Below, one piece after another: positions 28,117 through 37,027 of a DNA stretch of 64,000 nucleotides. The notes beneath the pieces were generated by a model. That model was given only the letters and a program-made list of their open reading frames with translations. It did not search any database and had not been told where the DNA came from. Origin of the DNA: Amylibacter sp. SFDW26 (lineage in GTDB: Bacteria; Pseudomonadota; Alphaproteobacteria; Rhodobacterales; Rhodobacteraceae); contig NZ_WEIC01000001.1 in assembly GCF_009184395.1 (NCBI RefSeq), positions 1,072,047-1,136,046 of the forward strand, read 5' to 3'. The first letter of the stretch is position 1; each line of letters opens with the position of its first letter. Position numbers and translations under genes: made by a program.

Positions 28117-28479
28117 ATGCGCAAACAACGTCATCCAACAGAGATACTTGAACATTGCCCGATGGAGGCAACTTTGGATCTGATAGGTGGAAAATGGAAA
28201 GGCGTTATACTCTTTCGTCTTTACGAGGGCACAAAGCGGTTCAACGAATTATCGCGCCTTATCTGCACAATATCCCCCAGAACATTGACCAAACAACTGC
28301 GTGAATTAGAGGCAGATGGGCTTATCAGCCGCACTGTTTATCCAGTCGTTCCGCCAAAAGTGGAATACAATCTGACAGAGCGCGGTCAAACATTACAGCC
28401 TGTTTTGTTGGCGTTAATGGAATGGGGTCAAACCAATATCCTTGATGCCACCCCAATTGAGCAGTCAAACAGCCTGTAA
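28117..28479 (+). CDS. HxlR-family transcriptional regulator
   Basis: A 120-residue winged-helix regulator. The family core is complete: CPMEATLDLIGGKWKGVILF (about 14-33), RFNELSRLICTISPRTLTKQLRELEADGLI, and the wing SRTVYPVVPPKVEYNLTERG. The cysteine at about residue 14, just before the first helix, is where thiol-based sensing occurs in family members such as HypR and YodB, so redox or electrophile sensing is plausible. Divergent from the MAPEG gene and convergent with a LysR gene, overlapping it by 15 bp at the 3' ends. Confidence 0.92.
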   Translation: MRKQRHPTEILEHCPMEATLDLIGGKWKGVILFRLYEGTKRFNELSRLICTISPRTLTKQLRELEADGLISRTVYPVVPPKVEYNLTERGQTLQPVLLALMEWGQTNILDATPIEQSNSL

Positions 28480-29355
28480 ATGCTGCGGACGCGCAGGCGT
28501 TGATTGACTTGCATAAGCATCCTCAATCAATTCTGCCAAACGATCAACCAATACCGCATTTGCTGAACCTGCTCGTTGCAATGTGATCTTAAACTCAGGC
28601 AATTCTGGCAAATTCGCATCTGCTGGCACTTCCATCCAATCAGCAGGCTGCGTTCCAGCTAAACACGCATGAACAGCAAAATCGGCACTGACACAGGCCT
28701 CAACAGTCTTTGCATGCGTTGTATCCACAGCCAATTGCCATGTAATGCCAGCTTTATCTAAGGCTTCCACGACAATTGGGCGGAACAAGCAATTGTTCTC
28801 ATATGCCAATCCAAGCGGTTGTTTTTTCCAAACACGCCCATCTTGTGCACCAAACCATGTAAGTTGTGATGATTGCACAACCTTTGCCCCCACTGGGCAA
28901 TCAATTTCTGTTGTCAGGATTAAATCAGCCTCGCCCAGCTCCAGCCTTTCTTTCAGATTGATTGTGTAAGAAGACAACAATTGGACCTTCACACGCGGAA
29001 ACTCGACTGCAAATTGCTTAAGAACCTTAGGGATATGTGGATAAACGATATCATGCGGCACACCCAAAACGATTTCATCTTCGAAATCATCAGATGTTAA
29101 TCGCCCCCAAGCTTCATCATTTAATGCCATCATGCGCTTGGCATAACTCAGCAACAACTCCCCTTGTTGCGTTAAGGCAACCCCACGCCCTGACCGATCC
29201 ATCAAGGCTAAACCCATAGCTTCCTCTAACCTTTTCAATTGCATAGAAACCGCTGATTGCGTCAAATGCAGCTGACCTGCTGCTTTTGTTACGCCGCCAG
29301 TTTCTGCTACGGCTACAAATGAACGCAACGCAGTTAAATCTAAATTCCGAACCAT
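28465..29355 (-). CDS. LysR-family transcriptional regulator
   Basis: A 296-residue activator/repressor. The start MVRNLDLTALRSFVAVAETG at 29355 is canonical; an upstream in-frame start would add 21 atypical residues. N-terminal winged helix-turn-helix (GGVTKAAGQLHLTQSAVSMQLKRLE, about 20-44), then the periplasmic-binding-protein-like effector domain (about 93-290). It is divergent from the DUF1127 gene at 29481, with 125 bp between starts, so it may regulate it. Effector unknown. Confidence 0.92.
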   Translation of the reverse strand: MVRNLDLTALRSFVAVAETGGVTKAAGQLHLTQSAVSMQLKRLEEAMGLALMDRSGRGVALTQQGELLLSYAKRMMALNDEAWGRLTSDDFEDEIVLGVPHDIVYPHIPKVLKQFAVEFPRVKVQLLSSYTINLKERLELGEADLILTTEIDCPVGAKVVQSSQLTWFGAQDGRVWKKQPLGLAYENNCLFRPIVVEALDKAGITWQLAVDTTHAKTVEACVSADFAVHACLAGTQPADWMEVPADANLPELPEFKITLQRAGSANAVLVDRLAELIEDAYASQSTPARPQHLQAV

Positions 29356-29480
29356 ATCACAATCCTTGATGAATACTGTCACAAATCTTTGTTTTTCAAA
29401 TGATAGCTTAAGTGGCATAGAGATATCAAGGAATTTGATGAAAAGAACCCATCACATAACAGAATGGAAAGGATCACAAA

Positions 29481-29684
29481 ATGACATATATCGCCGATAC
29501 TCACATCCCTCGCGCCTCAAAGCGTCCAGCATTCTTTGCGCGCCTTAACTCTGCACTTATGTTGCGCAGTCAACGTAACGCCCTGCAAAGCCTCAGCGAT
29601 CAATCTTTAAAAGATATCGGCTTAAGCCGCGCTGATGTTCACCGTGAATGCGCAAAAACATTCTTTTCTGACCTCATCAGATAA
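29481..29684 (+). CDS. DUF1127 small protein (copy 1)
   Basis: A 67-residue basic protein. The C-terminal half carries the DUF1127 signature: LQSLSDQSLKDIGLSRADVHRE (about 36-57), in which 'L.D.GLSR' is invariant. AAAGGATC precedes the ATG. In Rhodobacter sphaeroides the DUF1127 protein CcaF1 is an RNA-binding protein co-transcribed with stress sRNAs whose loops contain CCUCCUCCC. Here too a hairpin with a CU-rich loop follows the gene, 16 bp after the stop. Function in this organism is inferred. Confidence 0.88.
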   Translation: MTYIADTHIPRASKRPAFFARLNSALMLRSQRNALQSLSDQSLKDIGLSRADVHRECAKTFFSDLIR

Positions 29685-36305: not shown

Positions 36306-36351
36306 AAAAGGCATCCCCCGTATAACTGCGCATTGTTTCAAGCTCCTGAGC

Positions 36352-36368
36352 TATGCAATAATTGCATA
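36352..36368. promoter_or_regulatory. Dyad TATGCAAT-A-ATTGCATA before the hairpin array
   Basis: Perfect 8-bp arms around a single A, followed by ATGCAT at 36375-36380 and a -35-like TTGACC at 36383-36388. Its position ahead of the CU-loop hairpins makes it a candidate operator or activator site. A matching -10 could not be fixed with confidence. Confidence 0.45.
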
Positions 36369-36430
36369 ACGGAAATGCATTATTGACCCTTTAAGAATGG
36401 TTACTCAATACCTATCTTATAGACAGAGCG

Positions 36431-36556
36431 AAGGACACACCTCCCATTTAGTCCTTCCTTATATAGGATCTCAGCTTCACTCCTCCCATCCGAAGCCCGA
36501 TCCAAAGTTAGAAAGCGATGCTGCACCTCCTCCCGCGGCATCGCTTTTTCTTTTTG
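36431..36556 (+). ncRNA. Three tandem CU-loop hairpins (cuckoo/CcsR-like sRNA array)
   Basis: Hairpin 1: AAGGAC 36431-36436 with GTCCTT 36451-36456, loop contains CACCTCCCATT. Hairpin 2: GGATC (36466-36470) plus GCTTC (36474-36478) with GAAGC (36492-36496) plus GATCC (36499-36503), loop ACTCCTCCCATCC. Hairpin 3: AAAGCGATGC 36512-36521 with GCATCGCTTT 36538-36547, loop contains CCTCCTCCC, then a T-rich tail that makes it a terminator. The loops are complementary to Shine-Dalgarno sequences. This matches the architecture of the Rhodobacterales 'cuckoo' sRNAs (CcsR1-4 of R. sphaeroides), which sit beside DUF1127 genes. Here they precede the DUF1127 gene, whose start is 122 bp further on. No transcript start is proven. 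Confidence 0.75.
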
Positions 36557-36678
36557 CACTATTCTTATCAGTAAAACTACTTATGCACCAAACGCATGTC
36601 GGAAATGCAACCTTATCTGTTTTATTTTTGGGCAGAACGCCTAAATTAAAGTCATCAGATAAACAATGGAGCAAGCCA

Positions 36679-36888
36679 ATGGCAATCCTAGCACAAACAT
36701 ACAAACCGACTTCTGCAGACACATTTACATCAGTATTCAACATGGTGAAAACAGATGTCGCGAACTACTTAGCTTACCGCAAAACAATTTCTGAGCTAAG
36801 CAAGTTGACAAACCGCGAATTGGGCGATCTTGGCCTAAGCCGTTCAGGCATCAAAGCATCTGCAATCTACGCAGTATACAACTACTAA
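36679..36888 (+). CDS. DUF1127 small protein (copy 2)
   Basis: A 69-residue protein with the DUF1127 C-terminal signature ISELSKLTNRELGDLGLSRS (about 36-55) and a tyrosine-rich end. The ATG at 36679 has GGAG 8 bp before it; the longer frame from 36397 runs through the hairpin array and is rejected. In R. sphaeroides the DUF1127 protein CcaF1 is RNA-binding and affects processing of the CcsR sRNAs. The gene is bracketed by hairpins 1-3 on its left and 4-5 on its right, so an RNA-related role is likely here as well. Confidence 0.88.
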   Translation: MAILAQTYKPTSADTFTSVFNMVKTDVANYLAYRKTISELSKLTNRELGDLGLSRSGIKASAIYAVYNY

Positions 36889-36904
36889 AATTACATACTC
36901 ATAC

Positions 36905-36970
36905 CGATCTGCCCTCCCTCAGATCGTGTTGCATAAAACGGCGTCACCCTCTCCCTGTGGCGCCGTTTTT
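36905..36970 (+). ncRNA. Two CU-loop hairpins following DUF1127 copy 2
   Basis: Hairpin 4: CGATCTG 36905-36911 with CAGATCG 36920-36926, loop CCCTCCCT. Hairpin 5: AAAACGGCG-T-CAC (36935-36947) with GTG-G-CGCCGTTTT (36957-36969; T-G wobble), loop CCTCTCCCT, followed by T residues, so it doubles as the transcript terminator. They start 16 bp after the stop codon of the DUF1127 gene and probably belong to the same transcript. Loops carry the same anti-Shine-Dalgarno CU motif as hairpins 1-3. Confidence 0.75.
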
Positions 36971-37027
36971 TATTGGCCCAATAAAACAGCCTTGATATCA
37001 GCAGCAGTTTCCATCACTCATGTTCAT

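Follow-up and report, generated by a model that had tools for sequence, protein, structure and literature searches.

The locus lies in a 3.1-Mb Amylibacter-like genome (Rhodobacterales) from a group of marine bacteria; NCBI places Amylibacter in the order Rhodobacterales, family Paracoccaceae. At its centre is a gene for a small DUF1127 protein, flanked by a solute-binding protein gene (PBP_like_2), which we take to be TupA, and a RidA-type gene, with a helicase gene farther along that we read as uvrD. Coordinates below are those of the window, by which we mean the whole 64-kb stretch of DNA that was analysed.

36351–36378, +: promoter module 1, LysR-type box TGCA-N6-GCAT at 36354–36367, then CGGAAATGC (best matrix score in 64 kb)
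36412–36417, +: -10-like CTATCT of the RNA unit, predicted start ~36424 (YTANNT spacing in the genus)
36420–36558, +: predicted upstream three-hairpin RNA, ar14/NfeR1-like (RF02344 match, fold z, presence without DUF1127 in 5 genomes)
36427–36460, +: hairpin 1, loop ACACCTCCCATTTA (hairpin scan, fold; CCTCCC invariant in 7/7 rows; stem covariation weak)
36466–36503, +: hairpin 2, loop ACTCCTCCCATCC (scan, 36474–36496; fold; CCTCCC invariant in 7/7 rows)
36510–36556, +: hairpin 3, loop ACCTCCTCCC, T-rich tail; probable intrinsic terminator (sequence; scan, 36510–36549; fold)
36581–36608, +: promoter module 2, box TGCACCAAACGCAT at 36584–36597, then CGGAAATGC (exact pattern, 1 of 4 in the genome)
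36641–36646, +: -10-like CTAAAT of the DUF1127 promoter, predicted start ~36653 (YTANNT spacing in the genus)
36668–36671, +: GGAG, Shine-Dalgarno-like, of the DUF1127 gene (sequence)
36679–36888, +: DUF1127 gene, 69 aa, CcaF1-like (PF06568, 36.0 bits, cut-off 23.3)
36905–36926, +: hairpin 4, loop CCCTCCCT (scan, fold; two-sided changes in 4/7 pairs)
36935–36974, +: hairpin 5, loop CCTCTCCCT, T-rich tail; probable terminator (scan, 36935–36969; fold)

Five CU-loop hairpins cluster around the DUF1127 gene

Within 543 nt of one strand (+, 36427–36969) lie five CU-loop hairpins, three 5′ and two 3′ of the DUF1127 gene. An earlier note on this DNA had described these hairpins, T-rich tails after the third and the fifth, and a TATGCAAT-A-ATTGCATA dyad ahead of the array. 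Direct reading and a hairpin scan recovered all five, the tails are present in the sequence, and the dyad occupies 36352–36368. The folds put the CU motif inside the loop of every hairpin. The full CCTCCTCCC appears in one loop (hairpin 3), and the other four carry CCTCCC, CTCCTCCC, CCCTCCC and CTCTCCC. A terminator scan limited to loops of 3–8 returned none at the locus; the loops of hairpins 3 and 5 measure 10 and 9.

The + strand of the window holds 11 CU-loop hairpins in total, compared to 8–19 in 20 shuffles, which is no excess, and a scan of its minus strand for such hairpins found none. Because the + strand total falls within the shuffle range, isolated CU-loop hairpins prove nothing; the cluster and its strength do. 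Five CU-loop hairpins in 600 nt were not reached in any of 300 Markov shuffles (highest 4), and none of the 300 contained two hairpins scoring ≥30. The RNA fold of 36420–36556 has an energy of -46.1 kcal/mol (z -7.2) and that of 36890–36974 an energy of -28.3 kcal/mol (z -6.8), with equally stable shuffles in 0/200 cases for each. Mirrored sequence is unsuitable as a hairpin control, since mirroring preserves hairpins. Across the genome, CCTCCTCCC alone shows no clear enrichment (5 occurrences versus 3 for the reversed control), and the other three DUF1127 genes have no adjoining CU-hairpin array.

The upstream RNA unit also occurs without the protein gene

We compared the locus within a set of 33 genomes of the same genus, probably Amylibacter. 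A DUF1127 profile matched in 31 of the 33, and one locus from each of 30 was examined. A strong upstream CU hairpin is present at 20 of these 30 loci, 11 of which also have a downstream one, and in all ten genomes with the closest DUF1127 orthologs hairpins flank the gene on both sides. In five genomes (G019, G021, G022, G026 and G030) TupA and uvrD enclose the three-hairpin unit, and a search of both strands of these five loci found no DUF1127 gene. The space past the last hairpin is 25–50 nt in four of them and ~550 nt in G022. Loci L142–L144, L149 and L024 have this form, the three-hairpin RNA unit being kept between TupA and uvrD and the DUF1127 gene missing.

A tree of uvrD fragments was built from 30 rows, 22 from the genus and eight from others (G005 was dropped as too short, and G017 and G029 were not entered). 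A single branch (100/98) separates the outgroup from the other rows, and two changes on the tree account for the DUF1127-less form. Most economically, the upstream unit would date from the base of the genus or earlier, and the protein gene would have been lost twice with the RNA retained.

We also scanned 20 loci from other genera, 14 obtained through the ar14 search, which biases them toward arrays, and six through DUF1127 similarity. In 19 of the 20, between 3 and 15 CU hairpins lie ≤800 nt after DUF1127, with none in the remaining locus, and no hairpin was detected between the promoter box and the DUF1127 gene in any of the 20. The arrays of other genera share the uvrD side of the neighbourhood.

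Some genomes carry a second locus in which a DUF1127 gene is followed by an array but lacks the promoter module (L145, L146, L147 and L026). At L147 (G031 C1:862400–865400), the module-less DUF1127 gene is followed by about six nearly identical repeats of ~94 bp, each of which contains two CU-loop hairpins, as would result from recent tandem growth of the array.

Loops are conserved and most stems covary

The upstream alignment has seven rows, as the divergent G014, G020 and G017 were misaligned in a ten-row version and were dropped. The downstream alignment uses the same seven of ten genomes, the other three showing one downstream hairpin by scan. RNAalifold placed a different pairing at hairpin 1 over the seven upstream rows, and for this reason we took the window's own fold for the upstream covariation.

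For the downstream pair, 100% of cells are paired and two-sided changes occur in 7/19 pairs versus 2.5 expected, which 0/500 shuffles reach, and sliding the partners leaves ≤1 such change. For the upstream triple, 84% of cells are paired and two-sided changes occur in 12/35 pairs versus 6.9 expected (1/500 shuffles; ≤5 changes with partners slid), where the shuffle counts for both sets ignore relatedness and are not probabilities. By stem, two-sided changes are found in 1/10 pairs of hairpin 1 (67% of cells paired), 6/10 pairs of hairpin 2 (two helices, 91% and 77%), 5/15 pairs of hairpin 3 (96%) and 3/12 pairs of hairpin 5. Hairpin 3 and the downstream hairpins thus covary clearly, hairpin 2 moderately and hairpin 1 weakly. 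An arm-swapping test was partly circular, as the scanner picks paired arms, and was not counted as evidence.

CCTCCC in loops 1 and 2 is invariant in all seven rows, and loop 3 differs from CCTCCTCCC in three of the seven; across the genus, the last upstream hairpin has the full CCTCCTCCC in 7/20. Together, the loop conservation and the counts of two-sided changes indicate that the CU core is kept and that in most stems the two arms change in step. The earlier note's picture of one loop motif on varied stems holds in part: the loops are kept and most stems covary, but the full CCUCCUCCC is missing from four loops and hairpin 1 barely covaries. The syntenic loci give a similarly mixed outcome, with the layout kept and compensatory changes in most stems, but with little covariation in hairpin 1 and variation of loop 3 in 3/7 rows.

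A shared promoter module precedes both predicted units

The module ATGC-N7-GCAT-N2-CGG-N3-TG occurs at 36353 and 36583, its only two positions in the window. Because each predicted unit starts with this same module, the dyad is best regarded as part of the first promoter. Using search regions for boxes and -10 elements that were set post hoc from the sequences, in genomes that are related to one another, we found a TGC-N7-GCA box in the first region of 20/20 upstream-unit loci of the genus (~0.14 expected per locus) and a strict one in the second region of 15/20 (~0.05 expected per locus), module 2 not being strict in 5/20. YTANNT lies 56–59 nt after the box start in 20/25 RNA promoters of the genus (20 upstream units and five stand-alone ones) and 57–59 nt after it in 16/23 DUF1127 promoters with a strict box. 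This -10-like spacing would place the starts near 36424 and 36653, and with a start near 36424 the first box would sit at about -70 to -57. A consensus promoter scan of the locus detected no + strand sigma-70 site.

Genome-wide, the module pattern has 11 matches at ≤1 mismatch versus 2 in the reversed control. Four matches are exact: the two at the locus, one that precedes a 49-codon ORF, and a fourth, at C7:42132, that has no clear unit. Another DUF1127 gene has a one-mismatch site ahead of it. The 49-codon ORF (MTNLDTKIDY...), with its exact module at G000 C8:47299 (L091, L155), is a candidate regulon member. Separately, a LysR-type regulator gene (28468–29451, -) is divergent from a second DUF1127 gene (29481–29684, +), whose promoter was searched and held no convincing module.

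The module precedes DUF1127 in 19/20 loci of other genera, and from these 19 promoters of other Rhodobacterales genera we built a matrix, leaving out L019, which lacks the first box. On both strands of the 64 kb, the RNA promoter (module 1) ranks first with a score of 24.2 versus 7.7–17.2 in ten shuffles. The DUF1127 promoter (module 2) ranks second with 8.7, a score that 7/10 shuffled windows reach and that is not significant alone. Many of the other-genera DUF1127 promoters (e.g., L002, L011, L020 and L023) have a second, TTGTGCAnnTGCAGCAT-like box ~40 nt past the first.

A class-wide ar14 search returned only 5/289 genomes at E ≤ 1e-6, and Rhizobiales ar14 copies were therefore drawn from plasmids, as eight loci that we picked among 40 listed of 509 matching plasmid records. 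In seven of the eight, the top matrix site lies 106–110 nt before the ar14 match (scores 9.6–22.0), and in the eighth the corresponding site ranks second (2.1). Over 100 shuffles of locus L104, the mean maximum score was 1.8 and the highest 14.1, so that the weaker Rhizobiales sites rest on their common position. In R. leguminosarum and R. ruizarguesonis (2/5 annotated loci), a DUF1127 gene is found 213–225 nt upstream of ar14, and its own site is the second-ranked one.

These observations change one part of the earlier note. Where it suggested a split array, we predict two transcription units that both begin with the module, and the upstream one also occurs without DUF1127.

Resemblance to known RNA families

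Searched against Rfam at curated cut-offs, the whole window yields two tRNAs only. RF02344 (ar14) scores 50.3 bits (E 5.5e-8) over 36420–36550, below its gathering cut-off of 58.8, and RF02791 (CcsR1) scores 26.8 bits over 36894–36971, below its cut-off of 65.3. No second ar14 match exists in the genome at E ≤ 1. An ar14 search of 101 genomes gave 47 matches at E ≤ 0.01, of which five pass the cut-off.

Compared with ar14, in which three hairpins each present an unpaired CCUCCUCCC, the upstream unit has CU loops in all three and the full motif in the third alone; the ar14 promoter box TGCA-N6-GCAT is found upstream of the predicted start (36354–36367). Cuckoo RNAs consist of 2–4 adjacent hairpins with CCUCCUCCC loops and variable stems. 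Adjacent hairpins with a conserved CU loop and variable stems are found here, three upstream and two downstream, with weak covariation in hairpin 1, and the exact CCUCCUCCC is found in one of the five loops. As in CIN1, a short DUF1127 gene lies beside CcsR-like hairpins, here on both sides. Because the cut-offs or the exact loop motif are not reached, we do not assign the locus to ar14, CcsR1 or the strict cuckoo family, but it very probably works like these RNAs. Models that require a strict CCUCCUCCC can miss family members with shortened loops.

The earlier note's main proposal, that the DUF1127 gene is flanked on either side by cuckoo-type hairpin RNAs, is supported as a prediction by the hairpins and by a weak Rfam resemblance, which is to ar14 upstream and to CcsR1 downstream but attains neither gathering score. 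Its interpretation as a whole is partly supported.

Proposed mechanism and alternative readings

We favor, with a probability of roughly 0.7, a divergent locus of the cuckoo/CIN1 type with twin, co-regulated units. The hairpins, the loop conservation, the covariation of most stems, the twin modules and the stand-alone unit 1 are read directly from the sequences, and we infer that both units are transcribed. Unit 1 would be a free-standing ~130-nt RNA with three anti-Shine-Dalgarno loops, transcribed from a promoter and ended by a terminator of its own. Unit 2, the DUF1127 mRNA, would likewise have a separate promoter and would carry one or two CcsR-like CU-loop hairpins in the 3′ UTR, which may be released by RNase E together with the DUF1127 protein. 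The exposed CUCCC loops, mimicking the 3′ end of 16S rRNA, would base-pair with several mRNAs at their Shine-Dalgarno regions and reduce their translation, and the stems may vary freely provided that the loops stay presented.

The functional steps are modeled on characterized relatives. NfeR1 is reported to block ntrB translation through redundant anti-Shine-Dalgarno loops and not to need Hfq (PMC10746234); the loops at this locus would pair with Shine-Dalgarno sequences by analogy. CcaF1 is reported to bind RNA and to help mature CcsR RNAs (PMC10253847), and by the same reasoning the DUF1127 protein may bind RNA, whereas other DUF1127 proteins are reported to act via PhoR (PMC12501420). From the NfeR1, VtlR and CcaF1 literature, the locus most likely produces an anti-Shine-Dalgarno RNA together with a DUF1127 protein, both controlled by one LysR-type regulator.

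We considered that the locus could instead be one ordinary CcaF1-CcsR operon, in which RNase E cuts a single precursor that starts at the first promoter and extends through hairpin 5, and the upstream hairpins have moved from the 3′ to the 5′ side of the gene. R. sphaeroides CcaF1-CcsR1-4 is reported to be one such RNase E-cut precursor (PMC10253847), and the uvrD side of the neighbourhood is common to the arrays of other genera. However, the supposed operon would contain a probable terminator and a second promoter module, and unit 1 occurs stand-alone, which makes a single operon unlikely.

A leader attenuator, in which hairpin 3 of the upstream set stops transcription of DUF1127 unless a signal permits read-through, would fit the position of this T-tailed hairpin before the gene and has a precedent in an S. 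meliloti DUF1127 gene reported to be under leader attenuation with an upstream ORF (PMC12218461). A 163-aa frame (36397–36888, +) also spans the array and the gene here. This frame is not kept in the nine closest relatives, whose open frames at DUF1127 span 79–105 codons compared to 172 here, and is probably due to chance; an upstream reading frame through the array was rejected on the same ground. The second module between terminator and gene (strict at 15/20 loci, with -10 spacing) and the survival of the three-hairpin unit without DUF1127 in five genomes further argue against attenuation, which we regard as quite unlikely.

An account of the locus without any regulatory RNA, by ordinary terminators, leader structure and a bias toward pyrimidines, is very improbable: single CU-loop hairpins do arise by chance (8–19 per 64-kb strand in 20 shuffles, 11 in the window), but the cluster (0/300), the fold z of about -7, the covariation with largely invariant loops and the conserved promoters are at odds with it.

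A LysR-type regulator and a possible wider regulon

Returning to the twin-unit reading, both promoters share a LysR-type box at a near-equal distance from the -10-like element, and for this reason one regulator probably switches on the RNA and the protein together. The LsrB site of NfeR1 is reported to read TGCA-N6-GCAT and to fall between -72 and -57, ahead of the core promoter, and LsrB is reported to activate NfeR1 (PMC10746234); the box of module 1 has the same form. VtlR, the Brucella name of LsrB, is reported to activate DUF1127 genes and AbcR2 (PMC12595884), and Agrobacterium VtlR/LsrB to activate atu1667, which encodes a small protein and is orthologous to two of the Brucella targets (PMC7486931). 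By analogy with LsrB, the cue would be redox or nutrient status.

LsrB is reported to be restricted to the Rhizobiales, where its gene shares an operon with trxB (PMC11975290). In the Amylibacter genome, trxB lies at G000 C8:199611–200516; none of the 34 LysR-type candidates listed is its neighbour, and the only listed one on the same contig is at 266880. A search for a thioredoxin-reductase motif beside 30 of the 34 candidates was likewise negative. Among these candidates the trxB neighbourhood of LsrB is absent, and none of them could be singled out as the regulator of the locus.

NfeR1 of rhizobia and CcsR of Rhodobacter, which have been studied apart, seem to have a promoter switch and a protein neighbour in common, which suggests one regulon and one physiological cue. 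We tentatively raise the possibility of an ancient alphaproteobacterial regulon in which a single LysR-type module joins anti-Shine-Dalgarno RNAs and DUF1127 proteins, from Rhizobiales NfeR1-type RNAs to Rhodobacterales ccaF1-type operons. Amylibacter would have twin units with an RNA that outlives loss of the protein gene, the Rhodobacterales regulator would be other than a trxB-linked LsrB, and DUF1127 would be the missing partner of Hfq-independent NfeR1-type RNAs. The RNA chaperone, if any, of NfeR1 is posed as an open question in the NfeR1 report (PMC10746234), and RNA versus protein binding by DUF1127 proteins is presented as debated (PMC12501420). A genus that has the RNA unit both with and without an adjoining DUF1127 gene renders the two questions directly testable.

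Comparison with known systems

The hairpin type, the DUF1127 link and both model systems are already known. Our literature search, which did not extend to the original cuckoo, CcaF1 and CcsR papers, where an earlier mention is possible, returned no description of a two-sided locus, a stand-alone Rhodobacterales ar14-like unit or the shared module.

With alpha-r14/NfeR1 (RF02344), the upstream unit shares adjacent hairpins, CU anti-Shine-Dalgarno loops, differing stems and its own predicted promoter with a TGCA-N6-GCAT box, and ar14 likewise adjoins a DUF1127 gene in 2/5 annotated Rhizobiales plasmid loci. The Amylibacter unit differs in falling below the Rfam cut-off, in the motif being shortened in two of three loops, in a genome where no trxB-linked LysR-type gene was found and in its Rhodobacterales host; the ar14 family is reported from Rhizobiaceae, Brucellaceae and Phyllobacteriaceae (PMC7143759).

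The second half of the locus resembles CcaF1-CcsR1-4 (CIN1) of R. sphaeroides, where DUF1127 also has CU-loop hairpins in the 3′ UTR, the last a probable terminator. Unlike that system, the locus has only two downstream hairpins and an extra upstream unit with its own predicted promoter. The R. sphaeroides CcaF1-CcsR promoter is reported as RpoHI/RpoHII (PMC10253847).

Finally, the predicted co-regulation resembles the VtlR/LsrB regulon of Brucella, Agrobacterium and Sinorhizobium, in which one LysR-type regulator is reported to activate DUF1127 genes and small RNAs (PMC12595884, PMC7486931, PMC10746234). It differs in that trxB of the Amylibacter genome has no listed adjoining LysR-type gene.
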